Below, one piece after another: positions 27,193-60,088 of a stretch of DNA of 64,000 nucleotides; the stretch's first letter is position 1; each line of letters begins with the position of its first letter. Source of the stretch: Flavobacteriia bacterium (GTDB taxonomy: Bacteria; Bacteroidota; Bacteroidia; Flavobacteriales_D; Crocinitomicaceae); NCBI GenBank assembly GCA_947450325.1, contig CANFUT010000005.1, positions 62,001 to 126,000 on the forward strand, read 5' to 3'. The translations under genes and the position numbers were made by a program. The notes below the pieces were generated by a model, which saw only the letters and a list, made by a program, of their open reading frames with translations, had not been told where the DNA came from and made no database searches.

Positions 27193-27223
27193 GAAAATAG
27201 TATTATTAATAGATTGCATAAAT

Positions 27224-28528: not shown

Positions 28529-28549
28529 ACTAATCAAAAATTAATAATT

Positions 28550-29515: not shown

Positions 29516-29517
29516 GA

Positions 29518-30411: not shown

Positions 30412-30413
30412 TT

Positions 30414-40097: not shown

Positions 40098-40949
40098 TTA
40101 ATTCATCTTTAAAATTCTAGTATTTATCCAATCAATTCTCTCGTTCGCAGAATTTAAGTCTATAAATTCGAAGTCGTTCAACCAATTTGTTAGTTTAGCC
40201 TCAGTATGCTTTAGACCATAATATGACTTAAATTTTCTAAACATTGACAGTCCAGGAACCATTGGTTGTTTAGCATCAAAATCACGTGGATGGAAATATG
40301 TCATCACGTAATCAGATTTTTTAGTGAAATTTTTAATCACTCCATATGGAAAAAGTCTAAAATAACCACCACCCGAAAACACGATTTCTTTCCCCATGAA
40401 GGAATGAAGATTGATAGGCATTTCTTTGATTTTCATACCGTCACATTCAATCCAGACAGGTTCAGATTTTCCGTAGTCATGAAATCCGCCGTGTGAACGT
40501 TCTGTTGGGAACAAAGAACAATCTATTTCAATTCCATGTTTAATTAAAGCTTCAATTGCCCATGGAGTTTCGTTGGTGATTGAAAATCCGGGTGCCCTAA
40601 AATATCTGATTTTTTGACCAGAAACTGATTCAAGAGTATCTATCGATTTTATTAAATCGATTTCAAATTCTAGCGGTGATTGCTCGTATACCAGTTGATG
40701 ATAGTGTGTGTGCGAGCCAATTTCAAATCCTGAATCTACAATTTTTCTGATAATTTCTGGATATTTTTCAGCAATCCAACCGACACAAAAAAAAGTTGCT
40801 TTTTGATTATTCGCTTTCAAAATGTTAAAAATAATCTCCATATTTTGATGAATCCTACTTTCAAATTTTGACCACTCGGAAACTCCTTTTGTTTCAGGAT
40901 TATCTAAGATATGAAACCAATCTTCAATGTCAAAAGTCAAAATATTCAT
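40098..40949 (-). CDS. Polysaccharide deacetylase (NodB-type) with DUF3473-like C-terminus
   Basis: 283 residues. The ATG at 40949 overlaps the upstream sulfotransferase stop as ATGA; a TTG two codons earlier is less likely. The NodB domain shows TFDIEDWFH near 6-14 with the metal/base aspartates, SHTHYHQL near 78-85 with metal histidines, and RAPGFSI near 118-124. The C-terminal part (PINLHSFMGKEIVFSGGGYFRLFPYG, TYFHPRDFD) matches the DUF3473 extension known from exopolysaccharide/exosortase-linked deacetylases. It probably N-deacetylates a HexNAc residue of the polymer or lipid-linked intermediate. Confidence 0.9.
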   Translation of the reverse strand: MNILTFDIEDWFHILDNPETKGVSEWSKFESRIHQNMEIIFNILKANNQKATFFCVGWIAEKYPEIIRKIVDSGFEIGSHTHYHQLVYEQSPLEFEIDLIKSIDTLESVSGQKIRYFRAPGFSITNETPWAIEALIKHGIEIDCSLFPTERSHGGFHDYGKSEPVWIECDGMKIKEMPINLHSFMGKEIVFSGGGYFRLFPYGVIKNFTKKSDYVMTYFHPRDFDAKQPMVPGLSMFRKFKSYYGLKHTEAKLTNWLNDFEFIDLNSANERIDWINTRILKMN

Positions 40950-41836
40950 TTCCAATTTTTTAAGTTTGTATCAGTTATTTTTTCTAGTTCTGAAATATCA
41001 TGATTAAAGTACGCTTGAAGTTTGTTGCGTGTTTGAGGGTCAATTTGATCTTTGGCAAACATTTTTGAAGCTATCTTTTCCAAATATTTTCGAGGAATTG
41101 TTTTGAGAGCAAATTCTCTTAATCCGTATATTATTTTATTATTTCTATTTGTTAGGGCACCAATGAGTGCATTTTTTGGCTTTCCAGAATGGCTATATCT
41201 CGTTTCTGCATCAATTCCTTGAAATTGATCTACTTCCAAAAATTCAAAAATGGATTCTAAAACTTTTTTTGGATTCTCATCTAGCTGATCAGAAAACACA
41301 ACTTTTACTTGACTGAAATTTGCTAAAAATGCCTTTAATCCATCAGAATATAATCCTCCGGCTTTATATGCCCACATCCAATCCCAATTTTGAGAAATTC
41401 TTTTTTCCTCTTCATCTATTGCTTGGTCAAAGGATAAATCCTCTCTACCGTCTCGGACCAGATTATTGTAAGCTGAATAGGATCTTTCAATCGGATTCCT
41501 GAAACAAAGGATGATTTTTACATCTCCTAGCTTTTCTTTTATCGCTTGAATGGTATTTTCGTGGTAATAAAAGTAGTCAGAACTTGCTTCACCGATCGCT
41601 TTGAAATTTTCTAATGAATTAAATAATTCGAAATATTTGGACTCATCTGTTACCAATTTTGCGTCTACTGTATTGTCTCCCGGACCTTTGTGTGGAAGAC
41701 TTAAATTAATGCTGCTAAAATACTTTGGCTCCTTAATTTTTGGAAAACCGATTTGTGGATGTTGCTTTAAATAATGATACAAAGAGGTTGTACCACATCG
41801 TGCAACTCCAGCAATGATGAAATTGGGTTTATTCAT
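40946..41836 (-). CDS. Sulfotransferase (PAPS-dependent), first of three
   Basis: 296 residues. The 5'-phosphosulfate-binding loop is near residues 9-22 (AGVARCGTTSLYHYL), followed by KEPKYFSS. The 3'-phosphate-binding segment is ILCFRNPIERSYSAYNNLV near 107-125. This is the Sulfotransfer_1/heparan-type pattern. It should move sulfate from PAPS to a sugar hydroxyl or amine of the polysaccharide. It overlaps the deacetylase gene by 4 bases and shares one base with the GH5-like gene stop, so all are co-transcribed. Linkage with the deacetylase raises N-sulfation as an untested possibility. Confidence 0.92.
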   Translation of the reverse strand: MNKPNFIIAGVARCGTTSLYHYLKQHPQIGFPKIKEPKYFSSINLSLPHKGPGDNTVDAKLVTDESKYFELFNSLENFKAIGEASSDYFYYHENTIQAIKEKLGDVKIILCFRNPIERSYSAYNNLVRDGREDLSFDQAIDEEEKRISQNWDWMWAYKAGGLYSDGLKAFLANFSQVKVVFSDQLDENPKKVLESIFEFLEVDQFQGIDAETRYSHSGKPKNALIGALTNRNNKIIYGLREFALKTIPRKYLEKIASKMFAKDQIDPQTRNKLQAYFNHDISELEKITDTNLKNWK

Positions 41837-42975
41837 TAATTTTTTTGTTTATTTATACCCCAGTTTTTTTCAAGTATCAATAGAGAATTAGATTTTTGAT
41901 CTTTTTTTTCAGTTAGATTTTCAGCCTCACGTTCTCCCTTACTTTCAAATTCAAAGTTGTAATTCCAACCTTTCCATCCGTTGAAAGAAAAATATGCCCA
42001 TGAAAATTTCTTTTTTTCTAAGATTTCAATTACATCCTTTAGATACTGATCTTTTCCATCTGCCCAACGAACAGCACTAAATTCTCCTGCAAAAACATAT
42101 TTTACATTATTTTTACTTGACCAATTATAGACTTTGTTTATCTCTTTTTCTATTTCACTTTTATCCCAATATCTCTTTTCAATTTGACCGGGATAGGAGT
42201 ATTCACCTTCTTTTTTTGTTCCTTGATGAGTATATCGATGAGGTTGATAGAAATGGAAATTGTAAATAATTTTGGGATCCTTAAAAGGCTTTCCCATTTT
42301 TATATAACCCTTTGGATCAGCCCAAGGTCCGGGAGTGTAAAGCAAATACTTGGTAGATATAGTTCGGAATTTCGCTAGAATTTTTTTATAATGCTGATCC
42401 CATGTAGCAGGCTTTAAAGCATTATTATTGTCTGAAATAACCGGTTCAGAGAAAAACTCAAACGCAACCACACCTTTGATAGTATCAAAAGTTCTCGTGA
42501 TTTTTTCAATATCTAAAATAGATTGATTTAATGCTTTTGGATTTTCCCAAAATGCTTTTGTATGATTTTCATTTTTTTCATCTGAATCAAGAGGAAAATC
42601 TGAATGACTTATCAATACAGAAATGTTATTTTTAGAACAAAATGAAATTACCTTCATACTCCATTCGACGTTGTTTTTCCAACTTTCTTCTTTAGAAACT
42701 TTATTCATTTCTTGGTAATTTCTAAAAGAAATTCTGAGTCGTATTAAATTAACGCCTTGATTCGCTAATTCAGCAATTGAGTTTTCTGTTACTCTTTCTC
42801 GGTCATTGTGGGTAACGATAGTAATTCCTCGCCAAGGCCAACCTAAATCATCATTTGACTGAATTTTAAGTGAGTTTTTTTCGTTTGTCACAATTTTCTT
42901 CTCCTTGTTTTTGACCGCACAAAATGTCAAACTGAAAATAGCAAGAATTGACATTTTTAAGTAAATGTACTTCAT
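41836..42975 (-). CDS. GH5-like glycoside hydrolase lipoprotein
   Basis: 379 residues. The signal ends in a lipobox-like LTFC (Cys19), so the mature protein is membrane anchored. The TIM-barrel pattern of clan GH-A is visible: GVNLIRLRISFRNYQEM near 69-85, VAFEFFSEPVI near 172-182 with the probable acid/base Glu, NFHFYQPHRY near 238, and the probable nucleophile in FAGEFSAVRW near 303-312. It may trim or cut the nascent or exported polysaccharide, as hydrolases in exopolysaccharide loci often do. Exact substrate and family subgroup are not certain. Confidence 0.8.
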   Translation of the reverse strand: MKYIYLKMSILAIFSLTFCAVKNKEKKIVTNEKNSLKIQSNDDLGWPWRGITIVTHNDRERVTENSIAELANQGVNLIRLRISFRNYQEMNKVSKEESWKNNVEWSMKVISFCSKNNISVLISHSDFPLDSDEKNENHTKAFWENPKALNQSILDIEKITRTFDTIKGVVAFEFFSEPVISDNNNALKPATWDQHYKKILAKFRTISTKYLLYTPGPWADPKGYIKMGKPFKDPKIIYNFHFYQPHRYTHQGTKKEGEYSYPGQIEKRYWDKSEIEKEINKVYNWSSKNNVKYVFAGEFSAVRWADGKDQYLKDVIEILEKKKFSWAYFSFNGWKGWNYNFEFESKGEREAENLTEKKDQKSNSLLILEKNWGINKQKN

Positions 42976-42985
42976 CGAAATTGAG

Positions 42986-44104
42986 TTAATTCTTCATCAC
43001 TTTTTGTGAAAAAGTCAAGTATTTTTTTGCAATATTCTCCCAAGAATAGTAGTTAATTGCACGCAAATATACACCTTCCTTAAAAGCATTTATTACAGAA
43101 TTATTTTTTTCTTCTTCAGCAAAAATGAATGTGTCATTTGCTTGGTTTGTATTTTTGAAATATTTCCCATTTTCTTGAACCACTTCTCTATTGAAAATAT
43201 TGTCGTGGCAGACGCAAAGATTTTTAGAACCCATGGCTTCTAATAGCGACGGATTGGTTCCACCTACAGAATGTCCATGAAAATACGTCAAGGACGCAGC
43301 TCTTAAAATCATTAGTTTTTCACGTTCATATATACCACCTAAAAAATGAATATTTTCATTTTTATATTTGATCAGTTCTTGCGAGTGTTTAGTATTTGTA
43401 TTTCCAACTATCACCAAAGGATGTTTCTTTTCAGATTTCAGGTATCCTTCAATTATCATTTGAACATTGTTTTCAGGTTCCAATCTAGAAACAACCAAGT
43501 GGTATTTATTCGGTTCATAGTTTAATCCGTATGATTCAAGATCAGCTTTCGTTATTTCTTTTTGAGAGAAAGTGTTTAGATACGTACCATATTCAATGAT
43601 CGTTAAGTTCTTTTTGCGTTTGAAAGATTTTTGATAGTATTCAGCGATTCCGATGGAGTCACAAACTAAATGTGGAGACAACCAACTTGCAACCAAATAT
43701 TGTGTGAAGAAAATAAACTTTTTCCACCAAACATATTTGTCTCTTTTAAATCCTAAACCGTCAGGATTTACAGCAATTATTGAATTTTTCTTGCTGTAAA
43801 ATGGAATTAAGAGTGATCCTCCAACTCCACACATTATGATTACATCAGCTCCATTATTTTGAGCAATTTGAATGCTTTGTTTGTAGAATTTGAGCGGGTT
43901 CCCTGGTTTTGATATGTTTGACTTAAATATTTCAATTCCTTTATAGTGAGATTCGTTATAGTCTAAACTTTTATCGCCGATTACAATTGTCTCGATTCCC
44001 ATTTCTACTAATCGCATACAAACTTCCTCAGCAAAAGTTTCGAATCCACCATAATTTGCAGGTATTCCGCGTGTTCCAATAATTGCAATCTTAGGCTGTT
44101 TCAT
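42986..44104 (-). CDS. DUF1972/GT4 glycosyltransferase
   Basis: 372 residues. The N-terminus has the DUF1972 signature (IAIIGTRGIPANYGGFETFAEEV near 5-28). The C-terminal GT-B half shows VVSRLEPENNVQMIIEGYL and, near 295-315, HGHSVGGTNPSLLEAMGSKNLCVCHD. Family members often transfer rhamnose, which would fit the rfbACD genes in the locus; that assignment is inference. Its start overlaps the preceding GT4 gene by 14 bases. Confidence 0.9.
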   Translation of the reverse strand: MKQPKIAIIGTRGIPANYGGFETFAEEVCMRLVEMGIETIVIGDKSLDYNESHYKGIEIFKSNISKPGNPLKFYKQSIQIAQNNGADVIIMCGVGGSLLIPFYSKKNSIIAVNPDGLGFKRDKYVWWKKFIFFTQYLVASWLSPHLVCDSIGIAEYYQKSFKRKKNLTIIEYGTYLNTFSQKEITKADLESYGLNYEPNKYHLVVSRLEPENNVQMIIEGYLKSEKKHPLVIVGNTNTKHSQELIKYKNENIHFLGGIYEREKLMILRAASLTYFHGHSVGGTNPSLLEAMGSKNLCVCHDNIFNREVVQENGKYFKNTNQANDTFIFAEEEKNNSVINAFKEGVYLRAINYYSWENIAKKYLTFSQKVMKN

Positions 44105-45206
44105 AAAGTTCTTTCGTTAATTTAGCGATATTATTCCAATCGAATTTTGTCTTTAGTAATAACTGCGCGTTATTTTCAATTCGAGCGATATCACTTTTGT
44201 TTTGACAAATTTCAAGAATTTTTTTCGATAATGAGTGTACATTTTTATTTTCGAAGATGTATCCTGTTTCATTGTCAACTACAATTTCCTTAAATGCATC
44301 TAAATCTGAACACAAACATACACGACCATAGCTCATTGAAAGTAACAAAACACCACTTTGGTATATCTTTTTATACGGTAAAACTATTACATCACTTTTT
44401 TGAAAATAAGAATGAATTTCTTCATTTGGAATGTAACTAAAATTTGTTTTAACTGCCTTGTCTATTTCCAATTCAGTAATCAAATTTGAAAAAAATTCAG
44501 CACTTGTTCCCCAAGGTTTCCCTGCGATTGTCAACCTGATGTTGTCGTTTGCTTTGTATGCTTTTGCAAAAGCGTTGAGTAGAATTTCTAAGCCTTTTAC
44601 TTCTTTAATTTGACCAAAAAATAAGAGGTTCAATGTATCTGATGGATCATTTGTTTTTACTTTTTCAACGAAAGGAACGTAGTTTCCATGTGGAATAATT
44701 GCCACCTTTTCTTTTGAAATTCCTTTTTTAATAATTTCATCAAAAGAAAACTGATTGTGAACGATTAATTTTTGGGAAAGTGAAAAAGCACGTTTTTGCA
44801 GTGATGAACTTTCTTTTCCTCTAAATGAATCAATGTCATGCAAAGTAACAATTCTTTTCAGACGAAAATACTTTGCCATTTGAAGGACTAATATATTTTG
44901 CATTTTTAAGTGGAAGAATTGAAAATGAACAATTTCAATCTTGTTTTTTTTACAATATTGAAATGATTTTCGATAACCATTTAAAAGAAAAAGCAATTTA
45001 AAAATTTTATTTTTAGACCAAATATCCCCAAACGAATAAACAGTATTAACACCCTTTGCAATTATTTCATCCGTCTGATTACAAGTGAAATAAAAAACTT
45101 CACAGTTGTTTGATGCCAGTCCGATGGAAAGCCCATAATCGTAAAAATCCATTCCACCTTTGCCGCCAACAGGATCAATTATTGCAATTTGTTTTTTTCT
45201 TTCCAA
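44091..45206 (-). CDS. GT4 family glycosyltransferase
   Basis: 371 residues with a GT-B layout. The N-terminal half binds the acceptor (IAIIDPVGGKGGMDFYDYGLSIGLA). The C-terminal half shows LNLLFFGQIKEVKGLEILLNAF near 190-212, and the donor-binding area PYKKIYQSGVLLLSMSYGRVCLCSD near 278-302, with VDNETGYIFE. The usual EX7E motif is weak. The sugar it adds is unknown. It overlaps the DUF1972 gene by 14 bases and starts 10 bases after the second sulfotransferase gene. Confidence 0.9.
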   Translation of the reverse strand: MERKKQIAIIDPVGGKGGMDFYDYGLSIGLASNNCEVFYFTCNQTDEIIAKGVNTVYSFGDIWSKNKIFKLLFLLNGYRKSFQYCKKNKIEIVHFQFFHLKMQNILVLQMAKYFRLKRIVTLHDIDSFRGKESSSLQKRAFSLSQKLIVHNQFSFDEIIKKGISKEKVAIIPHGNYVPFVEKVKTNDPSDTLNLLFFGQIKEVKGLEILLNAFAKAYKANDNIRLTIAGKPWGTSAEFFSNLITELEIDKAVKTNFSYIPNEEIHSYFQKSDVIVLPYKKIYQSGVLLLSMSYGRVCLCSDLDAFKEIVVDNETGYIFENKNVHSLSKKILEICQNKSDIARIENNAQLLLKTKFDWNNIAKLTKELYETA

Positions 45207-45216
45207 TTCTTTTATT

Positions 45217-46149
45217 TTAGTCTAACTTTTCTAACCAGTCAGGAAGATTGTTATATTGCTTACTCAAAAGGAGTTTCTTTAAATTTCGTAAATCTTCTCT
45301 GTATAAATCATTTAATTTCTGCATTTCATTTTCGAAAATATTTTGGTTATCAGACTTTTTGGTATTTACCATTGCATACAATCTAACGATTTTACTTTTG
45401 AACTTATCATTTTTTCTCCAAAATTTTTCAAACTTGCGATTGACATATTTTGAAAATTTTCTGAGTGTTTCGTTTTTGTGTTTTTTTGACTGATTTACAA
45501 TACGAAAGTCAATTTTATCCAATTCATTGGCATCTAAATTGAGCCATTGTAGAATCTTTTCACATACATTTCGAGGATTTTTTTCTATGTCATCAAAAAA
45601 GATTATTTTGATGTTGCTAGAGTCCACACAAGAATACCACTGTGATAAATACTTATAATACATTCCGTCATCTACACCATTTAAAACATATTCAATCTTT
45701 TCATTTTCGTTTTTTTGTTCAATAGTAGTGCAAATATTTATGTAATCCTTAAGCGACGTCTCTTTATTGATGAACTGATTTGGATAGTCGTTGATTAGCC
45801 CATTATTTAGCATTTTATAGAATGAAATCAAACGATCTGTGGGTTCTCGAAGAATAAAAATATACTTTACGTCTCTGTTTAGGTAATTATTTATTCCTTT
45901 TGCAATCGACTCACCACCATATAAATAGCCGGGGCTTGCTTCAAGTTTAATTCCTTCATTATTTGTGTCAAAATAATTTAAATAATGTTCCTGACTCTTA
46001 ATGTTTTGCTTGTAACGAATTGGTACAAAGAAACCTGTTTCTTTAATTTTTGAACCATTAAAAAAACTCAATTGGTTTAAATAAGTAAATAGTGATGAAG
46101 TACCTGATTTATAAGTGCCTGCGATAATTAAAAAGTTGTTGTTTTCCAT
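45217..46149 (-). CDS. Sulfotransferase (PAPS-dependent), second of three
   Basis: 310 residues. The PAPS loop is near residues 8-24 (IAGTYKSGTSSLFTYLN), then KIKETGFF. The 3'-phosphate-binding segment is IFILREPTDRLISFYKML near 96-113. LEASPGYLYGG between them is typical of carbohydrate sulfotransferases. It lies 4 bases after the third sulfotransferase gene. The C-terminus is rich in basic and aromatic residues (KFEKFWRKNDKFKSK), possibly for contact with an anionic polymer. Confidence 0.92.
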   Translation of the reverse strand: MENNNFLIIAGTYKSGTSSLFTYLNQLSFFNGSKIKETGFFVPIRYKQNIKSQEHYLNYFDTNNEGIKLEASPGYLYGGESIAKGINNYLNRDVKYIFILREPTDRLISFYKMLNNGLINDYPNQFINKETSLKDYINICTTIEQKNENEKIEYVLNGVDDGMYYKYLSQWYSCVDSSNIKIIFFDDIEKNPRNVCEKILQWLNLDANELDKIDFRIVNQSKKHKNETLRKFSKYVNRKFEKFWRKNDKFKSKIVRLYAMVNTKKSDNQNIFENEMQKLNDLYREDLRNLKKLLLSKQYNNLPDWLEKLD

Positions 46150-46153
46150 AAAA

Positions 46154-46891
46154 TTAATCCCAATAATTTGTTGGAGTATATTTATTTGCTAATTTTTCGT
46201 CGTACTTTAAACGCTTAATTAGTTGAAGTTTAACTTGAATCTTAAAAATTGTTCGAGAAAATAAATTTGGTTTAAAACTGCTATTAAAAAAAGTACTATT
46301 GTAATAATAAAAGTTACCAAAGTATTTATCTTTTAATTTCTGACTTAGACTGATCTCTGGTGCAACTTTTTTAGTTATATTAAATTTCTGTAAATCTCTC
46401 ACTATTTCTAAACCTAAATTACTAAAAACTTTTTTAAAATCTGCGTTGAGATTTTCAAAGTAAATGACATCGGTAATAAATTTGGAATTATACGACAAAT
46501 CATTATTATATTTTTTTAAGCCGAACATTAATTTGAGAAATTGTTCAAATGTAATTTGGTCAAAATGTACTTTTTTGAATATCTCGTAACGTTTCTGTGT
46601 CAACCAGCCCCCATTACTTACAAGATTTTTCGGGTCTGTATAAATATTCTGATGGTTGGTTTTCATTTTATTATACAATGAAAATGTCATTTCAATTGGG
46701 TCACGAACAACTGCAACAATCCTGAAGTTTTTTAAATCGACTTCATTACTTTTTTGAAGAAAGGGAATTGATGTGTGTTTTGAGAATAATGTTTCTGCGC
46801 CGTATTGTTCAATTAATTCCTTTGATATAGCGGATGAACCACTGAAGTATAAACCTAAGAAGATGTATTTTTTATTGTAATCTACTATCAT
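46154..46891 (-). CDS. Sulfotransferase-like protein, third of three (divergent)
   Basis: 245 residues. A P-loop-like segment near residues 10-22 (IFLGLYFSGSSAI) has lost the common GT(T/S) core, reading GSS instead. The 3'-phosphate-binding segment is clear: RIVAVVRDPIEMTFSLYNKM near 57-76. It resembles the Sulfotransfer_2/family-2-type carbohydrate sulfotransferases. Its start overlaps the polymerase gene by 20 bases. Activity is likely but less sure than for the other two. Confidence 0.78.
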   Translation of the reverse strand: MIVDYNKKYIFLGLYFSGSSAISKELIEQYGAETLFSKHTSIPFLQKSNEVDLKNFRIVAVVRDPIEMTFSLYNKMKTNHQNIYTDPKNLVSNGGWLTQKRYEIFKKVHFDQITFEQFLKLMFGLKKYNNDLSYNSKFITDVIYFENLNADFKKVFSNLGLEIVRDLQKFNITKKVAPEISLSQKLKDKYFGNFYYYNSTFFNSSFKPNLFSRTIFKIQVKLQLIKRLKYDEKLANKYTPTNYWD

Positions 46892-48086
46892 TGTTTTTAA
46901 GATTATTAAAGTTTAATATGTTTATCAATAAAAAGCAAAGCAAAATTTGAGAAGGATTATAAATGATGTAACCGTCTTTAAAAGTATAGATTAAAATAAA
47001 AAAAGCGAAAATAAAGAAGGTATTTTGTAGGACATTAAGTAATTTGTTTTTGAGTGTAATAATTCGTAAGAAAATGTAAATAAAAATTAATATTCCGATA
47101 ATTCCAAACGAATATAGCACTCCATAAACACCGATATCAACTGGATAAAAATAAACATTTCCTATGAGTTCTTCTTGTTTAGAACTTCGAATTAGGCCAT
47201 TTCCACTAATTGGATGATCGAAAAATCCTTCAAGTCCAATTTTTATTTCGTTTAACCTGACAAAGATCGATGCATCTTCTATTTTTCCCTTTCCCTCATC
47301 ATCCAATACCAATGTAAGTTGGCTAAACTTTTCCGAAAGTCTACTCTTTTCAGTATTGTTTCCCAGAATAATGTAAACTAAGACTAAAAATAATGGAAGA
47401 AGCGCCAAAAATTTTAAAGTAGATTTCTTTTTTCTGTATATAATTAACGAAAAAACAAGGGTTAAAGATAAAAAAATCATGTCACCTCTTTGAATATCAT
47501 ATAATTGGGTAGAAATAAAAATTAATGAAAATTTTAACAGATTGATTAATTTTGACGAACTAAAATATAATACGATATAATAGAATTGAACTAAAAAAAG
47601 GATATCCTTTGAATATTTATTTGCTGTTACTATAAGCTCTTTACCAGATAATGGAGAAATAAATGTAAATGAATATCCAGTCAAACTGGCGACTGACAAG
47701 ATTATCGTGTAAATCCAGCAAATTCTTACTAGGCTCTTAAAAACAAAATTTATTTGAATCTTATTTGAAGCAACCCAATAGTATATAGTTATTACAGAAA
47801 AACTCTTAAAAATATGCTGACTTGCAATTATTCCAGAAAAAATATCTTGATGTAAATTGAAGTAAGAAGAAATAATTGACGAAGAAATTAGAATTAAAGT
47901 AACTGTAAATGATAATCTAATATTTTTGTCTAGATATAATTTTTTAGAAAAAAACAAAAATACGCCATAAATTGAGAATAATTGAAGAAATAAATCACTA
48001 AAAATAGAAACTGGCGTTAAATAAAAGATGTTGAATATACTTAGAAAACAAATTACAGATAAAATATTTTTAGTTGTACTTTTCAT
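46872..48086 (-). CDS. Wzy-like polysaccharide polymerase / O-antigen ligase-type membrane protein
   Basis: 404 residues and about eleven hydrophobic segments. A large extracytoplasmic loop at about 245-305 contains the motif expected in Wzy/WaaL proteins (IKIGLEGFFDHPISGNGLIRSS). Local sequence identity is low, as usual for polymerases; the call rests on topology, loop motif and position beside the flippase. It would join repeat units at the periplasmic face. It overlaps the wzx stop/start by 4 bases. Confidence 0.82.
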   Translation of the reverse strand: MKSTTKNILSVICFLSIFNIFYLTPVSIFSDLFLQLFSIYGVFLFFSKKLYLDKNIRLSFTVTLILISSSIISSYFNLHQDIFSGIIASQHIFKSFSVITIYYWVASNKIQINFVFKSLVRICWIYTIILSVASLTGYSFTFISPLSGKELIVTANKYSKDILFLVQFYYIVLYFSSSKLINLLKFSLIFISTQLYDIQRGDMIFLSLTLVFSLIIYRKKKSTLKFLALLPLFLVLVYIILGNNTEKSRLSEKFSQLTLVLDDEGKGKIEDASIFVRLNEIKIGLEGFFDHPISGNGLIRSSKQEELIGNVYFYPVDIGVYGVLYSFGIIGILIFIYIFLRIITLKNKLLNVLQNTFFIFAFFILIYTFKDGYIIYNPSQILLCFLLINILNFNNLKNNDSRLQ

Positions 48087-49408
48087 ATTTTTTTTATAAA
48101 CGGGATGTGAAAAGTTTGTATTCTATATTTTTTGTATATCACTATTGCTGAAGTAATATTCAGAATAGAATAGCTTATTAATATAGAAATAGCAGCTCCA
48201 AAAATTGAGAAATATTTTATTAAAATAAGGCAACTAATTACATGAAAAATGAATGTAATTAGCAAAATATTTCTATAAGTTTTTTGATTTCCTGTCATAT
48301 TTAGAATAACACCAACTGAACCGCAACTTACATTTATGAATTGTGCTAAAACAAGCAACGCTAGTTCAATTTTGATATCTGTATACTCTTTGCCAAAAAA
48401 GCACAAAATTTGGTGAGCGAAGGAAATAATAATAATACTAGTTGAGAGCCCTACATAGAATAAAATTTTTGATGTTTGGTTTACGATTTTATTCAATTCA
48501 AAATGCTTATCTGCCCAAAAAAGTTCGGAGAACTTTGGAGCTGTCATTGTATTAATAACAAAAAGGATAATCGTAATTAATTGCGAAATTTTAAAAATTA
48601 CACTATATTTTCCTGCAAATTCTTCGGAGAAAAAATAACCGATACAAAATATCGGTAACGCGACAAGAAGTGAGGAAGCAATATTGCTCCACATAATGGG
48701 TATTGATGTGCTAAGAAGTTCTCTTTTTGTAAATTGAACTACTTCAACTTTTATTTTTCTTAAATTTTTCCAAATAGTAATTGAAGAAATTATGGAATTA
48801 AAAAGAATTGCAATGGCTAAAATATAAACTATCAATTCAATATCATAATTTCGAGCGAAGACAGATAAGCCAATTATTAGAAAAAGAGGAATAGTAATAC
48901 TTCTTAAAAATTCAGAAATTGCTACCTTTTTGAGTCCTCTTATGAATTCAACGCTTATTTGATTTATAGTATAAAGAGGAACAACAAAAAGTAAAGCCTT
49001 TAATGAAAATAAAAATTCTTTATCTATGTGAATAATATTTGCAAAAAAGTTTGAACTCAAGTATAAAATAACGCATACAAATATAGAAATTGGCGCGATC
49101 AAACTGATATAATTTTTATACAGTTTTCTCAATTTTACTTTCTCTATATCTGTGTTGAATTGTCCTACATATCTGAGAACAGAAATATTTATCCCAAGTG
49201 CTAAATTTATACCAACTACTACTAGTGATTGATAGAGCAGATTATAAAATCCTACCCCCTTAGATCCATAATACTTTGAAATTACGACGATAAGTAAATA
49301 ACTTAAAGCCATGCCACTCATTTTAAGTATGAAACTTAAAGAAGACCCTTTCAAAACTTCCTTCAAATGAACATCGCCATTTAATTTCTTCCTCAACTTC
49401 TTAATCAT
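48083..49408 (-). CDS. Wzx-like polysaccharide flippase (MATE/MOP superfamily)
   Basis: 441 residues with about 12-14 transmembrane helices. The N-terminal pattern (LKEVLKGSSLSFILKMSGMALSYLLIVVISKYYGSKGVGFYNLLY) and the second half (LLSTSIPIMWSNIASSLLVALPIF) match oligosaccharide flippases. It moves the lipid-linked repeat unit across the inner membrane. It overlaps rfbD by 8 bases upstream and the polymerase gene by 4 bases downstream. Confidence 0.92.
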   Translation of the reverse strand: MIKKLRKKLNGDVHLKEVLKGSSLSFILKMSGMALSYLLIVVISKYYGSKGVGFYNLLYQSLVVVGINLALGINISVLRYVGQFNTDIEKVKLRKLYKNYISLIAPISIFVCVILYLSSNFFANIIHIDKEFLFSLKALLFVVPLYTINQISVEFIRGLKKVAISEFLRSITIPLFLIIGLSVFARNYDIELIVYILAIAILFNSIISSITIWKNLRKIKVEVVQFTKRELLSTSIPIMWSNIASSLLVALPIFCIGYFFSEEFAGKYSVIFKISQLITIILFVINTMTAPKFSELFWADKHFELNKIVNQTSKILFYVGLSTSIIIISFAHQILCFFGKEYTDIKIELALLVLAQFINVSCGSVGVILNMTGNQKTYRNILLITFIFHVISCLILIKYFSIFGAAISILISYSILNITSAIVIYKKYRIQTFHIPFIKKI

Positions 49409-50270
49409 TCCTGGAATTTTCTATCAACATTTTTTGCAATGATTCCTTCCAATTAGGAACTTCCAAATTGAAATCAGTACGGATTTTCTTTTTATTTAAG
49501 ACTGAAAAGTGAGGTCGTTTTGCTTTGGTAGGATATTCGTAAGTTTCGATAGGGGAGACCTTACATTTCAATTTTGCTAAAGACATTATCTCATGCGCAA
49601 AGTCGTACCAACTTGTCACACCTTCATTCGAATAGTGATAAATTGTACAACCGGGTTTCCAATTGTCGATTTGATTGGCAATTGTCAAACATGCGTTAGC
49701 CAAATCGTTCGCGTATGTTGGCGTTCCAATTTGATCTATAACGACGTTTAAACTTTCTCTTTCAGAGCCAAGTTTCATCATCGTTTTTACAAAGTTGTTT
49801 CCAAAGGTTGAATAAACCCACGAAGTTCTGATGATAATGCTATGCGCTCGACTGTTTATTAATTCGATTTCTCCTTTTCGCTTTGTTTCACCGTAAACTC
49901 CTGTTGGGTTTGTAATGTCGCTTTCGATATAGGTCGTATTTTTAGAACCGTCAAAAACATAATCAGTTGAAATATGGATGATTTTGATGTTCTTTTCAGC
50001 GCAATATTCGGCTAAAAAATGAACTCCTTCAACATTGACCATTTCAGCCATTTCAGAGTCGTCTTCTGCTTTATCTACAGCTGTGTATGCAGCACAATTG
50101 ATAATTAAATCGAATTGGTAATTACTCAAAAATGAACTCATCGATTCTTTACTAGAAAGATTGAATTCGCTAGATCCAGTAAAATAAAAATGGTGCTGAG
50201 GATAACTGGTAACCAACGAATTGATTTCAGATCCTAATTGACCATTTTTTCCTGTTACTAATATTTTCAT
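49401..50270 (-). CDS. rfbD: dTDP-4-dehydrorhamnose reductase
   Basis: 289 residues, usual length. It has the extended SDR fold with ILVTGKNGQLGSEI near 3-16, INCAAYTAVDKAEDD near 58-72, and the Tyr-Lys pair in STDYVFDGS and PTGVYGETKRKGE near 128-140. It reduces dTDP-4-keto-rhamnose to dTDP-L-rhamnose with NADPH. rfbC precedes it by 1 base, and wzx overlaps its end. Confidence 0.96.
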   Translation of the reverse strand: MKILVTGKNGQLGSEINSLVTSYPQHHFYFTGSSEFNLSSKESMSSFLSNYQFDLIINCAAYTAVDKAEDDSEMAEMVNVEGVHFLAEYCAEKNIKIIHISTDYVFDGSKNTTYIESDITNPTGVYGETKRKGEIELINSRAHSIIIRTSWVYSTFGNNFVKTMMKLGSERESLNVVIDQIGTPTYANDLANACLTIANQIDNWKPGCTIYHYSNEGVTSWYDFAHEIMSLAKLKCKVSPIETYEYPTKAKRPHFSVLNKKKIRTDFNLEVPNWKESLQKMLIENSRND

Positions 50271-50271
50271 T

Positions 50272-50820
50272 TTAAAATGGACTACTAAAGTCTTTAAATG
50301 AACTTAAATTTTTGTCTTTTTCAGAAAGTTGAACCAATTCAATATCGATATTCCAATCAATGTTCAATGTTTCATCATTCCACAGAATGCCAGAATCATG
50401 CGTCGGAGCATATAGATTGTCGACTTTATAACTGAAAATAGCAGTTTCACTTAAAACAACAAATCCATGCGCAAATCCTCTTGGAACAAAAAATTGCTTT
50501 TTATTTTCGCCTGACAACAAAATCGAATAGTGTTGGCCATATGTTTTTGAATCTTTTCTCAAATCTACAGCAACATCCAACACTTCACCTTCTATTACCC
50601 TAACCAATTTTGCTTGCTGATAGGGTGGAAGCTGAAAATGTAATCCTCTTAAAACTCCTTTCGAGGATTTTGATTCATTGTCTTGAATGAATTCAGTTTC
50701 TGTTACATTTGAATTAAATGTATTTTTTTGGAATGTTTCCATGAAATATCCGCGAGCATCGCCAAAAATCTTTGGTTCGATGATAACCAAACCGTCAATA
50801 TTTGTTTCTGTTATATTCAT
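50272..50820 (-). CDS. rfbC: dTDP-4-dehydrorhamnose 3,5-epimerase
   Basis: 182 residues, the common length. Cupin-type RmlC features are [14 protein letters not shown] near 20-33, [43 protein letters not shown] in conserved order (active His in RGLHFQ), and [15 protein letters not shown] near 112-126. It overlaps rfbA by 4 bases. No rfbB (dTDP-glucose 4,6-dehydratase) occurs in the window, so that step must be encoded elsewhere. Confidence 0.97.
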
Positions 50821-51692
50821 TTTGAAACTTTTTTAATTAAATATTGACCGTAACCAGTTTTAGCAAGCGGTTTTGCAAGGTTCAAAACTTTTTCTTTTGA
50901 AATAAATCCTTGATCAAATGCAATTTCTTCCAAGCAAGCCACTTTCAAACCTTGACGTTTTTCAATTGTTTGAATAAAACTACTTGCTTCAATTAACGAA
51001 TCATGTGTTCCTGTATCTAACCATGCGTATCCTCGTCCCATCAACTCAACCTTTAAATTTTCTTTTGAGAGAAATACTTCATTTACAGTCGTAATTTCAA
51101 GTTCTCCACGTTCAGAAGGTTTGATTGATTTTGCGATTTCAATCACTTCATTTGGATAAAAATACAAACCTACAACAGCGTAATTTGATTTGGGAGAAAG
51201 CGGTTTTTCCTCTATAGAAACTACTTTACCAGTATTATCAAATTCAGCAACTCCATATCTTTCCGGATCATTTACATAATATCCAAATACAGTCGCAGTT
51301 CCTTTGTCGATTACATTTGATTTAGCTGACTTTAAAAGCTCTGTAAGTCCATGTCCATAGAAAATATTATCTCCTAATACAAGACAAACATCATCTGAAC
51401 CAATAAATTCTTCACCTAGTATAAACGCTTGTGCCAATCCATCTGGACTTGGTTGTACTTTGTAGCTAAACTTTACTCCAAAATCACTTCCATCACCCAA
51501 TAATTTTTCAAAATTTGGAAGATCTTGTGGCGTTGAAATAATAAGTATTTCTCTAATTCCAGCCAACATCAAAACTGATATTGGATAATAGATCATTGGT
51601 TTATCATATATCGGAAGTAACTGTTTGGAAACTCCTTTTGTAATAGGAAACAGGCGAGTACCTGAACCACCAGCTAAAACAATACCTTTCAT
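50817..51692 (-). CDS. rfbA: Glucose-1-phosphate thymidylyltransferase
   Basis: 291 residues from the ATG at 51692 ([18 protein letters not shown]), which forms an ATGA overlap with the cysQ stop; an in-frame start at 51707 lies within cysQ and adds five residues. Motifs: [30 protein letters not shown] in conserved order, [11 protein letters not shown] near 108-118 with the metal Asp, and [19 protein letters not shown]. It makes dTDP-glucose, the first step to dTDP-rhamnose. Transcriptional linkage with the sulfate-activation genes is direct. Confidence 0.97.
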
Positions 51693-52483
51693 CTTACTAA
51701 GAACCAATTATTTAATAAATTTTCTCTATTGTAAAGCATTTGCTTTTGAGTTGACCAATCAATCACTTCAAAACCTGCATGCATGCAAATAGCTTGTCCA
51801 GCCGCTGTATCCCATTCCATTGTAGGAGCAAAACGTGGATAACAATCCGCTTTTCCTTCTGCCACCATGCAAAGTTTTAATGAACTTCCTCTGGAAATCA
51901 ATTCAACCTTTCCGTGGGTTTTTTCCAGTTCTTTAACATAGTCTTCTGTTTCGACAGACATGTGAGATTTACTGGCAACTACTGTGAAAGCTTCCTTTTT
52001 TGTTTCAATCGGAAGTTTTACAGCATTTGTTTGTAAATACGGGAAATCATCTGAATGAGAGCTTGTAATTACTTTGAATGCACCACCTTCTTTTGTTGAG
52101 AAAAACAATTCATTTAAAACAGGAGTATAGATGACACCTAAAACTGGAATTTGATTTTCAATCAAAGCAATATTAACTGTGAAGTCTCCATTTCTTTTGA
52201 TAAATTCTTTTGTTCCGTCTATTGGGTCAACTATCCAAAGTTGTTTCCAATCCTTTCTATCTTCGTATGGAATATTTTTCCCTTCTTCAGATAAAATTGG
52301 GATATTTGTTGTAAGTAAATGACTTTCAATAATATTATGAGAAGCAATGTCAGCTTTTGTTAGTGGGGAATTATCACTTTTGAAATCTACACCAAAATCT
52401 TCGGTTTCGTAGATTTCCATAATTTTTTCACCAGCTTCAAGCGCAGCAACTATCGCAATTTTTAGAAAATTTAAATCTGACAT
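51689..52483 (-). CDS. cysQ: 3'(2'),5'-bisphosphate nucleotidase CysQ
   Basis: 264 residues. Inositol-monophosphatase-fold signatures are [20 protein letters not shown] near 36-55, [12 protein letters not shown] (metal Glu), [26 protein letters not shown] near 84-109 with the DPIDGT motif, and [14 protein letters not shown] near 221-234. It turns the sulfotransferase product PAP into AMP and phosphate, relieving product inhibition. Its place between cysN and rfbA fits an operon devoted to sulfating a polysaccharide. Confidence 0.96.
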
Positions 52484-52507
52484 TTTTTCAAATAATTTGT
52501 TTATTTA

Positions 52508-53764
52508 TCAGATTACCATTCCTGCGGCAACTGTTTCATTGGTTGCATCATCAACTAAAATGATACTTCCAGTCATGCGATTATCTCTATATTCGTCTAT
52601 CATTAACGGCTTTGTAGTTCTAATTTTAACTCTACAAATGTCATTCATATTGATAGATTTATCTTCGTTATTTCTTTCTATGGCGTTGATATCCATTTTG
52701 TAAACAATCTCTTTGATAATTGCTTTTTGATCGTTACTTGTATGCTTGATTGAATATTTTGCTCCTGGACGCGCAGAATTGTTGTTTAACCAACAAAGCA
52801 TCACATCGAATTCTTGAGAACACGTTGGTTGATTATTGGTTCTTACGATCATATCACCTCTACTAATATCAATGTCATTTTCAAGTGTGATCGAAACAGA
52901 CATTGGTGCAAATGCCTCTTGGTAAGTATTTTCGAAACAATCAATAGTTTTTATTTTTGACGTAAATCCTGAAGGAAGAACGGTAATATCGTCACCAACT
53001 CTTAAAATACCACTTTCCAATCTACCAGCATAACCTCTGTAATCTCTGTGTTCTTCCGATTGCGGGCGAATGACAGTTTGAACAGGGAAGCGTGCATCTA
53101 CCTTATTGATGTCGCTGCTAATGTGCAATGTTTCTAAAGTATGCAACATTGGCGCACCACTGAACCAAGGCATATTTTCAGAACGATTAACAACGTTGTC
53201 TCCATCCAATGCACTGATTGGAATAAAATGAACGTCTTTAATCATTAATTTTGAAGAGATTACTTCAAACTCTTCAACGATTTCATTGAATCTTTTTTCA
53301 CTGTATTCCACTAAATCCATTTTGTTTACGCAAACAATAATGTGTGGAATTTGAAGTAAAGATGCAATAAAAGAGTGACGTTTTGTTTGCTCAATAACAC
53401 CATTTCTAGCATCTATTAAGATGATAGCTGCATTTGCCGTAGATGCTCCAGTAACCATGTTTCTGGTATATTGGATATGTCCTGGGGTATCAGCAATGAT
53501 AAATTTACGTTTTGGCGTAGTAAAATATCTGTATGCAACATCAATCGTAATACCTTGCTCACGTTCGTCTCTCAAACCATCTGTAAAAAGAGCTAAATCT
53601 ACACCTTCGTGCCCTTTTCTTTTAGAAGTATTTTCAATTGACGAAAGTTGATCTTCAAAAATTGATTTTGAATCGTAAAGAAGTCTTCCAATGAGTGTAC
53701 TTTTTCCATCATCTACGCTTCCCGCTGTTGTAAAACGTAATAATTGACTGTTATGTAATTCCAT
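52508..53764 (-). CDS. cysN: Sulfate adenylyltransferase subunit 1 (GTPase)
   Basis: 418 residues, without the APS-kinase domain fused in some CysN(C) proteins. Translation-factor GTPase motifs are AGSVDDGKSTLIGRLLYD near 15-32, DTPGHIQYTRNM near 94-105 and VNKMDLV near 149-155. The two beta-barrel domains follow (FPVQTVIRPQSEEHRDYRGYAG). GTP hydrolysis drives CysD-catalysed synthesis of APS from ATP and sulfate. It follows cysD by 28 bases. Confidence 0.97.
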   Translation of the reverse strand: MELHNSQLLRFTTAGSVDDGKSTLIGRLLYDSKSIFEDQLSSIENTSKRKGHEGVDLALFTDGLRDEREQGITIDVAYRYFTTPKRKFIIADTPGHIQYTRNMVTGASTANAAIILIDARNGVIEQTKRHSFIASLLQIPHIIVCVNKMDLVEYSEKRFNEIVEEFEVISSKLMIKDVHFIPISALDGDNVVNRSENMPWFSGAPMLHTLETLHISSDINKVDARFPVQTVIRPQSEEHRDYRGYAGRLESGILRVGDDITVLPSGFTSKIKTIDCFENTYQEAFAPMSVSITLENDIDISRGDMIVRTNNQPTCSQEFDVMLCWLNNNSARPGAKYSIKHTSNDQKAIIKEIVYKMDINAIERNNEDKSINMNDICRVKIRTTKPLMIDEYRDNRMTGSIILVDDATNETVAAGMVI

Positions 53765-53792
53765 AATTTTTTTATTTCAATGATGTGATTAA

Positions 53793-54698
53793 TTAAAAAT
53801 ATCCTTCGCGTTTTCTGTCTTCCATAGCGCTTTCAGATCTTTTATCATCAGATCTATTTCCTCGTTCAGTTAATCGCATCGTACTAACTTCATCTACAAT
53901 TTTTTCTAATGTATCGGCTTCAGATTCAATACCTCCTGTAATTGTAATATCACCTAAAGTTCTAAATCTGATTCTTTTCGTAGAGACAACTTCATTTGCA
54001 TCTAGTTTGATGTGTTCTGAAAGTGGAATCCAAGCATCATCTCTCCAAATTACTTCTCTCTCGTGAGCAAAGTAAAGAGAAGGTATAGCTAATTGTTCAC
54101 GGTTGATGTAATTCCAAACATCCATTTCTGTCCAGTTTGAAATAGGGAATGCTCTAAAGTGTTCACCTTTGAATTGTTTTCCATTAAACAAATTCCACAA
54201 TTCAGGTCTTTGATTTTTTGGATCCCATTGACCAAATTCATCTCTATGTGAGAAAAAACGTTCTTTTGCTCTTGCTTTTTCTTCGTCTCTTCGACCTCCA
54301 CCAATCGCACAATCTATTTTGTATTTTTCAACTGTATCCAGCAAAGTAGTAATTTGCAATACATTTCTGGAGGCATTTTTACCTTTTTCCTCAGCAACTC
54401 TTCCGTCATCTATAGAATCTTGAACAGATCCGACTAATAATTGAACACCTAATGAATTTACCAATTTGTCTCTAAATTCTATTGTTTCAGGAAAGTTATG
54501 TCCTGTGTCAACATGTAACAAAGCGAACGGCATTTTCGCAGGGTAAAAAGCTTTTTGAGCTAAATATGTGACTACAATTGAATCTTTTCCTCCTGAAAAT
54601 AAAATTACAGGATTTTCAAATTGCGCTGCAACTTCTCTTAAAACGAAGATTGCTTCTGACTCTAATTCGTCGAGATAATTCAAATAGTATTTATTCAT
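53793..54698 (-). CDS. cysD: Sulfate adenylyltransferase subunit 2
   Basis: 301 residues from the ATG at 54698 (MNKYYLNYLDELESEAIFVLREVAAQF in conserved order), matching the usual ~302. A longer frame start at 54749 lies inside cysC and is rejected. The PP-loop is FSGGKDSIVVTYLA near 32-45. Other motifs are HVDTGHNFPETIEFRD, GGRRDEEKARAKERFFS and the end KREGYF. It forms APS with CysN. It overlaps cysC by 8 bases. A TATCTTTG box at 54710-54703 ends only 4 bases before the ATG, so an internal promoter may allow separate cysDN expression. Confidence 0.97.
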   Translation of the reverse strand: MNKYYLNYLDELESEAIFVLREVAAQFENPVILFSGGKDSIVVTYLAQKAFYPAKMPFALLHVDTGHNFPETIEFRDKLVNSLGVQLLVGSVQDSIDDGRVAEEKGKNASRNVLQITTLLDTVEKYKIDCAIGGGRRDEEKARAKERFFSHRDEFGQWDPKNQRPELWNLFNGKQFKGEHFRAFPISNWTEMDVWNYINREQLAIPSLYFAHEREVIWRDDAWIPLSEHIKLDANEVVSTKRIRFRTLGDITITGGIESEADTLEKIVDEVSTMRLTERGNRSDDKRSESAMEDRKREGYF

Positions 54699-55311
54699 GG
54701 TGCAAAGATATTTTATTTTTAAGATATTCGGTAATAATTTCAACCGCATTTTCGACAGAAGTATTTTCTGTATTTATTTCTAAACTAGGATTTTCAGGTG
54801 CTTCATATGGCGAACTTATCCCAGTAAAGTTTGGAATTTCACCTTTTCTCGCTTTCGCATACAGTCCTTTCACATCTCTGCGTTCACACTCTTCTAATGA
54901 GGTATTTACGAAAATTTCTATGAAATTGTCGGAACCAACAATTGTTTCAATTAATTTCCGATCCGATTGTAATGGCGAAACAAATGCTGCAAGTGTAACC
55001 AAACCTGCATCTACCATCAGTTTAGACACTTCGCCAATTCGTCTTAGGTTTTCATTTCGGTCTTCTGGCGAAAATCCTAAGTCGCTATTCAAACCCAATC
55101 GCATATTGTCGCCATCAAGGGTGTAAGTCTGCAAATTTTGTGAATGAAGATGTTGTTCTAATTTACTTGCAATTGTAGATTTTCCTGAACCGGACAAACC
55201 TGTAAACAAAATCATCAAGGATGAATGATTGTTTTTTTTATTCCTATCAATCTTACTAATCGAATAATTTTGATTGTAAACATTGTTAGGATTATCATTT
55301 TCGATTTTCAT
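54691..55311 (-). CDS. cysC: Adenylylsulfate (APS) kinase
   Basis: 206 residues. Walker A FTGLSGSGKSTIASKLE is near 36-52, TLDGDNMRLGLNSDLGFSPEDRNENLRRIGEV near 63-95, FVSPLQSDRK and the lid FVNTSLEECERRDVKGLYAKARKGEI near 134-160. It phosphorylates APS to PAPS, the donor for the three sulfotransferases in the same locus. It is stand-alone rather than fused to CysN. It lies 15 bases after the DUF2061 gene and overlaps cysD. Confidence 0.97.
   Translation of the reverse strand: MKIENDNPNNVYNQNYSISKIDRNKKNNHSSLMILFTGLSGSGKSTIASKLEQHLHSQNLQTYTLDGDNMRLGLNSDLGFSPEDRNENLRRIGEVSKLMVDAGLVTLAAFVSPLQSDRKLIETIVGSDNFIEIFVNTSLEECERRDVKGLYAKARKGEIPNFTGISSPYEAPENPSLEINTENTSVENAVEIITEYLKNKISLHHE
54703..54710 (-). 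promoter_or_regulatory. -7 element (TATCTTTG) immediately before cysD
   Basis: Exact TAnnTTTG inside the end of cysC, 4 bases before the cysD ATG. It predicts a leaderless cysDN-cysQ transcript. No TTTG is visible at the -33 position. Confidence 0.45.
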
Positions 55312-55326
55312 TTTGAAATCAATTTA

Positions 55327-55755
55327 TTATTCTTTTTGATCAGTAGAATCAATAATTAGTCCGTAATTACTTCTATACCAAATCCTTTCATGGAGATAAT
55401 ATAGTCCCATTTTTGTCACTAATTCTAGCCCACCAATTTTCAGCCCGGTCATTGGATTGCCGGATACAATCCATCCCATCATCATTGTATCTATTGTACC
55501 TACAATTCTCCAGGAAACCGTTTTAATCGCGTGTCTTAATTTACTTGAAACTGATTTTAAAATATTTGTTTTATACCACAATCTTTCATGAAGATAATAT
55601 AATAGCAACTTTGAGAAAACCTCAGCTCCCCCAATAGCAGCGCCAATTTTCAAGTCTCCAGAAACTAACCAGGATAACAGAATTGTATCCATGGTCCCTA
55701 CTGCTCTCCACGTGAAAGTCTTAGCAATATGTCTCTTTCTAGAAAATTGTTTCAT
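55327..55755 (-). CDS. Tandem DUF2061 membrane protein
   Basis: 142 residues formed by two similar halves. The first is RHIAKTFTWRAVGTMDTILLSWLVSGDLKIGAAIGGAEVFSKLLLYYLHERLWY-like (residues 8-61). The second, HAIKTVSWRIVGTIDTMMMGWIVSGN with YYLHERIWYRSN, spans 75-130. Each half is a DUF2061 module with one or two hydrophobic helices. The function is unknown, but it is often found beside cysC/cysD/cysN, as here, so a part in sulfate handling, perhaps transport, is plausible. Confidence 0.88.
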   Translation of the reverse strand: MKQFSRKRHIAKTFTWRAVGTMDTILLSWLVSGDLKIGAAIGGAEVFSKLLLYYLHERLWYKTNILKSVSSKLRHAIKTVSWRIVGTIDTMMMGWIVSGNPMTGLKIGGLELVTKMGLYYLHERIWYRSNYGLIIDSTDQKE

Positions 55756-60085: not shown

Positions 60086-60088
60086 CCC

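Follow-up and report, generated by a model that had tools for sequence, protein, structure and literature searches.

The 64,000-nucleotide stretch analysed here (the window; positions 62,001 to 126,000 of contig CANFUT010000005.1 in assembly GCA_947450325.1, a Flavobacteriia bacterium of the Crocinitomicaceae) carries 25 co-directed minus-strand genes, running from 60728 to 35682, which look like one polysaccharide operon with a built-in line for sulfate activation (Table 1). The run is flanked by recG and a cation efflux gene, 10 of its 24 junctions are overlapping, its widest gap measures 115 bp and it holds no inner stops. It starts with upxY, a tviC-like gene, pgi, a tviB-like gene, a cupin gene and a DUF2061 gene, continues with cysC-D-N-Q, rmlA-C-D, wzx, a wzy-like gene and two sulfotransferase genes (ST3, ST2), and closes with two GT4 glycosyltransferase genes, a GH5 gene, a further sulfotransferase gene (ST1), a DUF3473 deacetylase gene and wecA-, wza- and wzc-like genes. 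An earlier model-made reading of the letters (the original prediction) had described cysC, cysD, cysN and cysQ in near-continuous, partly overlapping order with rfbACD (here rmlA, rmlC and rmlD), wzx, a wzy-like gene and three sulfotransferase genes at 40946-55755. Gene calls and order are borne out by family models over their cut-offs, with the reservation that only two of the sulfotransferases exceed the Pfam threshold and that the unit proved larger than assumed.

All four cys genes score over the NCBIfam cut-offs and lie between the sugar-nucleotide genes and wzx/wzy. The Wzx/Wzy pathway set is complete, as initiating transferase, Wzx, Wzy, Wzc and Wza are all represented over cut-off (PF00953, PF01943, PF04932, PF02706/PF13807 and PF02563, respectively). 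UpxY-type antiterminators, to which the first gene belongs, are known companions of long polysaccharide operons. Among the sugar-supply genes, the two for uronic acid are nearest to TviB and TviC (UDP-GlcNAc dehydrogenase and UDP-GlcNAcA 4-epimerase; GlcNAcA, N-acetylglucosaminuronic acid), both under the cut-offs of those models, and the rmlB gene lies outside the locus on another contig (C1:158822-159808).

ATP sulfurylase (CysDN) and adenosine 5′-phosphosulfate (APS) kinase (CysC) are also enzymes of assimilation, and the cys genes might accordingly belong to a route for cysteine synthesis that merely adjoins a polysaccharide locus; in many family members, among the matches listed, two PF01507 genes indeed lie side by side, the arrangement that cysH next to cysD would give. 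The genome at hand (3.44 Mb assembly, 42 contigs, reported 99.98% complete) offers a different picture. PF01507, the family of 3′-phosphoadenosine 5′-phosphosulfate (PAPS) reductase and CysD, matched genome-wide the CysD of the operon and, weakly, one further protein, and detected no CysH (APS/PAPS reductase); the weak match was rejected as a CysH candidate, being a TilS-type protein (PF01171 186 bits, TilS_C). Sulfite reductase was likewise not found, PF01077 being without a match here though it matched in 11 of 14 control genomes. The original prediction had noted that reductive sulfur genes are missing from the window, which holds genome-wide for these two families, and its suggested search for a second cysDN/cysH set returned neither a second cysD nor cysH or sulfite reductase (cysN was not searched on its own), an outcome in favour of that prediction. 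Since CysDNC is encoded and neither CysH nor sulfite reductase was detected, PAPS most likely serves sulfation. The cell would thus apparently activate sulfate without reducing it, sulfation being the sole use of PAPS visible. No match to Sulfotransfer_1 was found genome-wide outside the locus, the three matches (one of them sub-cut-off) all lying in the operon; other sulfotransferase families were not searched.

Comparisons across the family point the same way. Two genomes (G038 and G052) possess two kinds of CysD, and the CysD of the window is 83% identical to the cysC-adjacent kind and 56% to the cysH-adjacent kind, and is therefore a sulfation-type copy. Furthermore, cysC tracks sulfotransferases: an APS kinase is matched in 33 of the 35 family genomes that match Sulfotransfer_1, and in 48 of the whole set of 120 (matches at E ≤ 0.001, including some weak ones; Fisher p 1e-15, not corrected for relatedness). 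As cysQ moreover overlaps rmlA within one gene run, we reject the assimilatory explanation, to which we attach hardly any probability.

Based on the gene content, the operon very probably directs the synthesis and export of a sulfated polysaccharide (exopolysaccharide or capsule) via the Wzx/Wzy pathway with its own sulfate-activation line. Judged from the gene families, CysDN would form APS and CysC would convert it to PAPS, while CysQ would hydrolyse the leftover 3′-phosphoadenosine 5′-phosphate (PAP). The WecA-like enzyme would start the repeat unit on undecaprenyl phosphate, and the glycosyltransferases would extend it with further sugars, rhamnose and an N-acetylated amino-uronic acid probably among them; sulfotransferases in the cytosol would then sulfate the lipid-linked unit, presumably before Wzx flips it, and Wzy, Wzc and Wza would polymerise and export the product. 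Two further steps are less certain, namely that DUF2061 serves as the entrance for sulfate or as a partner of the PAPS enzymes in the membrane, and that the deacetylase followed by ST1 yields an N-sulfated amino sugar. In its core, i.e., PAPS from CysDN and CysC used by sulfotransferases on a Wzx/Wzy polymer with CysQ removing PAP, the mechanism put forward in the original prediction fits the gene evidence; DUF2061, the conserved ends with a variable middle and the deacetylase-sulfotransferase pair, on which that prediction was silent, are added here. The locus would be an example of PAPS production that apparently plays no part in assimilation and is devoted to a polymer of the cell surface alone. 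If this is true, deletion of cysC should strip sulfate from the surface without starving the cell.

Table 1. Genes of the operon in order of transcription, with window coordinates and the profile matches behind each assignment.
Feature	Position	Strand	Basis
Transcription antiterminator of UpxY/RfaH type, opening the operon	60207..60728	-	NF033644 127.5 bits, cut-off 100
tviC-like UDP-sugar 4-epimerase	59084..60091	-	best NCBIfam model TviC, 352 bits, under its cut-off 760
pgi, glucose-6-phosphate isomerase	57439..59094	-	NF001211 766 bits, cut-off 492
tviB-like nucleotide-sugar dehydrogenase (amino-uronic acid supply)	56157..57437	-	TviB 534 bits (cut-off 592); TIGR03026 over cut-off
cupin, C-terminal domain of mannose-6-P isomerase type	55779..56135	-	PF01050 116.5 bits
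DUF2061 protein, two tandem domains	55327..55755	-	PF09834 142 bits, two stretches; structure model; genomic context
cysC, APS kinase	54691..55311	-	TIGR00455 239 bits (cut-off 139); PRK03846 over cut-off
cysD, ATP sulfurylase small subunit (inner ATG taken as start, matching the 301-aa form in sister genome G015; longer open reading frame from 54749)	53793..54698	-	TIGR02039 417 bits, cut-off 397
cysN, ATP sulfurylase GTPase subunit, without fused CysC	52508..53764	-	TIGR02034 565 bits, cut-off 336
cysQ, PAP phosphatase	51689..52483	-	TIGR01331 270 bits, cut-off 229
rmlA (start set at inner ATG; longer open reading frame from 51707)	50817..51692	-	TIGR01207 over cut-off
rmlC	50272..50820	-	TIGR01221 over cut-off
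rmlD	49401..50270	-	TIGR01214 over cut-off
wzx flippase	48083..49408	-	PF01943 50.7 bits
wzy-like polymerase	46872..48086	-	PF04932 (Wzy_C) 37.4 bits, cut-off 32
ST3, divergent sulfotransferase (weak)	46154..46891	-	PF00685 19.5 bits, under cut-off 22
ST2, sulfotransferase	45217..46149	-	PF00685 54 bits, over cut-off
GT4 glycosyltransferase	44091..45206	-	PF00534
DUF1972/GT4 glycosyltransferase, rhamnosyltransferase-like	42986..44104	-	PF09314; NF046071 198 bits, under cut-off
GH5 glycoside hydrolase, lipoprotein-like N-terminus (signal judged by eye)	41836..42975	-	PF00150 81 bits
ST1, sulfotransferase, structural group of heparan-sulfate NST/3-OST	40946..41836	-	PF00685 49 bits, over cut-off; profile; model
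CE4-type polysaccharide deacetylase with DUF3473	40098..40955	-	PF01522, PF11959; TIGR03006 234 bits, cut-off 276
WecA-type polyprenyl-phosphate sugar-1-phosphate transferase (initiating)	38919..40043	-	PF00953 119.7 bits; TIGR02380 141 bits, under cut-off
wza-like export protein	38069..38851	-	PF02563, SLBB_2
wzc-like chain-length determinant / tyrosine autokinase	35682..38066	-	PF02706, PF13807, PF13614; TIGR01007 over cut-off

The ST1 model (mean pLDDT 89, alignment of nine) has as its closest solved structure the bacterial sulfotransferase 3rnl (Z 34.0), and scores Z 22.6-24.4 to the heparan sulfate enzyme N-deacetylase/N-sulfotransferase 1 (NDST1) and the 3-O-sulfotransferases (3-OSTs), while the other sulfotransferase types listed reach Z 12.7-16.6. 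Its sequence profile also matches 1nst, the sulfotransferase domain of NDST1 (E 3e-13), as well as 3-OSTs. In the model, ST1 is thus grouped structurally with the glycan enzymes N-sulfotransferase (NST) and 3-OST. For ST2, the best PDB sequence matches are cytosolic SULT enzymes, and with ST3 a profile search of the PDB found no sulfotransferase; among the six members of the ST3 alignment, Sulfotransfer_2 is matched by four and Sulfotransfer_1 by three, which lends the assignment a degree of support.

The SULT matches of ST2 would suit an explanation in which PAPS is real and the sulfotransferases modify some lipid or small molecule instead, like BT_0416 of Bacteroides, sharing no more than the operon with the polysaccharide genes. 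A precedent for this exists, as a Bacteroides steroid sulfotransferase beside putative PAPS genes was proven active, according to the excerpt of the report available (PMC9417993). The arrangement at our locus speaks against it: the three genes lie amid wzx, wzy and the glycosyltransferase genes, ST1 groups with glycan enzymes, and two (in G015) or all three (in G050) of the sulfotransferases change along with wzx and wzy between species. Action on a lipid or small molecule is consequently considered improbable, and a polysaccharide acceptor is preferred.

This exchange became apparent from two other species of the genus, in which the same operon occupies the same site (G050, locus L006; G015, locus L007). 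The proteins from UpxY to RmlD are 88-99% identical in G050 and 75-99% in G015, and those of the export end (WecA, Wza and Wzc) 77-85%. The middle differs: identities in G050 and G015 are 25% and 46% for Wzx, and 48% and 46% for Wzy. ST1 is kept in G015 (92%), while the other sulfotransferases of both species are different proteins (best matches 26-34%), each locus still containing at least two Pfam-confirmed ones. Fixed ends around a variable wzx/wzy/sulfotransferase middle resemble serotype exchange with sulfation retained. From the comparison of the three species, in which supply and export genes are conserved and wzx, wzy and most of the sulfotransferases are not, we predict that sulfate is a fixed property of the coat and that its pattern varies, much like serotype switching. 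Base composition was considered as an aid for dating the variable middle and was dropped, since the conserved export end is also low in G+C (29.8% vs. 29.4%; supply part 33.7%). The GH5 gene (41836-42975) is 90% conserved in G015 and was not seen in the G050 locus; its product may trim or release the polymer.

Loci of this kind are recurrent, as five genomes of another family of the order (L177, L178, L179, L181 and L183) have cysC/D/N, wzx and several sulfotransferase genes per locus. About three to six sulfotransferase-like genes were counted in each, several of them in alternating orientations around wzx, and such loci suggest heavily or variably sulfated polymers. A fourth genome of the genus studied here (G062, 73% complete) showed two low-scoring sulfotransferase matches, and its locus L120 (G062:C90 14318-19411) encodes a very divergent CysC-like protein (26%) at the contig end, near an epimerase-like open reading frame for sugars; this is possibly a different sulfation locus.

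Several observations weigh against a dedicated sulfated polymer as the product. The substrates of sulfotransferases are not readable from sequence, so that the acceptor could be a lipid or small molecule after all, and the assignment of ST3 is weak (19.5 bits vs. 22). Not every member of the genus has the trait, since G035 (99% complete) gave no match for APS kinase, sulfotransferase or DUF2061. The gene absences discussed above rest on a draft genome of 42 contigs. Furthermore, promoter and terminator scans of the operon were uninformative, giving numbers near the shuffled expectation, and its single transcription is what we infer from the layout.

Another question is how sulfate reaches the activating enzymes. 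None of the 25 operon genes belongs to a known permease family in the family scans, and the gene preceding cysC is assigned by Pfam to DUF2061 only (PF09834). Its model consists of four long helices (mean pLDDT 82) and has no Foldseek match at E ≤ 0.001 (best PDB E 1.7). The genomic company of this family is nearly constant. Of 46 DUF2061 places in 120 family genomes, at least 14 lie within 1 kb of cysC and at least 29 others have a PF01507 gene (cysH/cysD) no more than 3 kb away, these being lower bounds as only part of the PF01507 and APS kinase matches entered the count; at most three have neither neighbour, and two begin within 75 bases of the contig's first base. Two-domain forms occur only beside cysC (9/9 two-domain places), and the other five cysC-linked places are one-domain. 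Across the phylum, 42 of the 395 genomes sampled match DUF2061, and 29 of the 30 loci fetched (L220-L249, our own included) contain cysC, cysH, cysD or cysN in their 1.5 kb flanks, with CysH called by blastp against three open reading frames located between DUF2061 and cysD, identities as low as 21% being accepted. Fusions also exist: DUF2061 is joined to CysC in L123 (13566-14627) and L126 (11574-12608), and to an APS kinase in ten loci of Sulfurovum and others (L015, L027, L028, L031, L033, L035, L038, L050, L069 and L078). These ten loci have two APS kinase genes each, one of them in frame with the DUF2061 domain.

Two roles could account for this association. DUF2061 could be a sulfate-entry protein, i.e., a small membrane protein of two or four helices bringing sulfate to ATP sulfurylase and APS kinase. 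We regard this as a tentative proposal. A sulfate importer, known or supposed, is part of the published PAPS clusters of Cobetia, Campylobacter jejuni and Bacteroides. In the same proposal, equally tentative, DUF2061 would replace an SLC13-type permease in Bacteroidota and some Campylobacterota, serving assimilation as the one-domain form beside cysH-cysD and sulfation where it stands beside or fused to cysC. Alternatively, it might be a membrane anchor or assembly factor for the APS/PAPS enzymes, with sulfate uptake encoded elsewhere; this is the chief competitor of sulfate entry, and we give it an even chance. The repeated fusions to CysC fit a tether, 76-142 aa is small for a transporter, and no fold match was obtained.

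The distribution of SLC13-type genes bears on both. Among 80 cysC loci from many phyla, DUF2061 was found within 5 kb in 20, an SLC13-type gene in 10, both in none and neither in 50 (p 0.059). In the 21 Bacteroidota-titled loci, a subset chosen after the pattern had been seen, the numbers are 10, 7, 0 and 4 (p 0.004), and in those seven the SLC13 gene is directly upstream of cysC, the slot taken by DUF2061 here. The SLC13 profile was built from seven sequences, taken from seven of its ten loci. That the two were never together in the cysC loci examined, and that SLC13 occupies the same slot, argues against the anchor and for sulfate entry. Simple replacement is, in turn, disfavoured by another 58 cysC loci, a set that overlaps with the first and often has 1.5 kb flanks only, with DUF2061 in 33, SLC13 in none and neither in 25; these 25 include L121 of G002, the locus most closely related to ours outside the genus. 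Loci with neither gene (50/80 and 25/58) indicate that uptake from another site is common, in line with an anchor. In the excerpts of literature available, DUF2061 appears as an entry in tables of iron-related regulation, and no open-access report naming it was among the matches listed for DUF2061 with cysH and sulfate. The comparison singles out this uncharacterised membrane family as a candidate for a component still lacking from sulfate uptake or activation in bacteria.

The last two genes before the export end, overlapping and adjacent, raise the possibility of N-sulfation. The deacetylase and ST1 might form a two-protein counterpart of NDST, the first freeing the amine of an N-acetylhexosamine (or of GlcNAcA or its galacto form, GalNAcA) and the second sulfating that amine. 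Animal heparan sulfate NDST1 (1nst, 8ccy) would be the model for this, as its sulfotransferase domain is matched by both the profile and the model of ST1 (Z 24.1-24.4), next to which the deacetylase gene lies. In contrast to NDST1, two separate overlapping genes instead of one polypeptide are found here, with a CE4-type deacetylase of putative activity and no obvious signal peptide (judged by eye). In the family, DUF3473 is over cut-off in 4 of 120 genomes (seven match at E ≤ 0.001), and these four have the four best ST1 matches in the 349 order genomes sampled, the window's own included (47-100% identity, E ≤ 1.7e-89; next best 40%). All four also belong to the 35 genomes in which Sulfotransfer_1 is matched (probability by chance 0.006, without correction for relatedness), and G050 has neither DUF3473 deacetylase nor ST1.

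Much stands against such a pair, and we consider it doubtful. NST and 3-OST score alike with ST1 (Z 24.4 and 24.3), so that O-sulfation is equally possible, and the pairing is seen in only four genomes of three genera. In G018, two genes separate the deacetylase gene from ST1, one encoding an ATP-grasp ligase, and the amine could be acylated instead. In the five closest deacetylase loci (L250-L254), the 4.7-20 kb examined showed neither a sulfotransferase gene nor cysC, and, as far as the excerpt consulted goes, heparosan-specific deacetylases reportedly cluster nearer a CE18 enzyme than CE4 (PMC13353177). A phylum-wide pairing was rejected: of 30 deacetylase loci fetched among the matches listed, only the window's own was positive, and in the 29 others no sulfotransferase was found within 1.5 kb flanks by blastp with the sulfotransferases known here, by which distant ones are missed. 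As far as the present data go, the pairing does not extend beyond this family. If true, the pair would offer a possible route to N-sulfated sugar in bacteria.

For the frequency of sulfotransferases at cysC loci, a purpose-built profile was positive in 16 of 80 loci and is too insensitive to be used as a measure, finding one in L006 where blastp points to two. Elsewhere in the window (27191-32083), an Alginate_exp-type porin gene directly precedes a phosphate transport operon of the pstS-pstC-pstA-pstB-like type.

Dedicated sulfate activation inside a Wzx/Wzy locus had been called uncommon in the original prediction, which is not supported in general in view of the five loci in another family and of precedents in Cobetia and Vibrio. 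The published systems are compared here from the portions of the reports that were consulted. In Cobetia marina KMM 1449, whose capsule is sulfated, cysN/C, cysD, cysQ and a sulfate permease are part of the capsule cluster, and cys genes, sulfotransferases and dTDP-rhamnose genes are united in one polysaccharide cluster as in our operon (PMC11766843). It differs in its ABC-transporter (Kps) export, a bifunctional CysN and CysC, and the sulfate permease in the cys operon where DUF2061 sits here. For Vibrio sp. KMM 8419, with cysC, cysN, cysD and sulfotransferases in the cluster, the combination of PAPS genes and sulfotransferases is called a hallmark; its polymer contains sulfated rhamnose and the compared strain differs mainly in one region (PMC11641403). 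However, export is by an ABC capsule system and the cys genes are second copies there, as opposed to the single CysD here.

The reasoning from a missing CysH has a parallel in C. jejuni HS:19, where cluster VI includes cysD, cysN, cysC, a putative sulfotransferase and a putative sulfate transporter in an organism stated to be without CysG, CysH and CysJ (PMC8743553). In contrast to our operon, it is a small cluster downstream of the capsule genes and its function is given as a hypothesis. Within the same phylum, Bacteroides thetaiotaomicron BT_0411-BT_0416 places putative PAPS genes beside a sulfotransferase forming cholesterol sulfate, and BT_0412 is envisioned as sulfate importer (PMC9417993); an SLC13-type protein is encoded upstream of cysC in B. 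acidifaciens (L041). The synechan (xss) cluster of Synechocystis also combines bacterial-type polysaccharide genes with sulfotransferases, but has cyanobacterial regulators, and PAPS genes are not named inside the cluster in the text consulted (PMC13125312). The suggestion that the arrangement is undescribed in this lineage is compatible with the open-access literature (titles and abstract beginnings), which yielded no report of sulfated polysaccharide clusters in Flavobacteria or Bacteroidota. The principle itself is already in print, and what sets this locus apart is a small DUF2061 membrane protein in the place where others have a sulfate importer.

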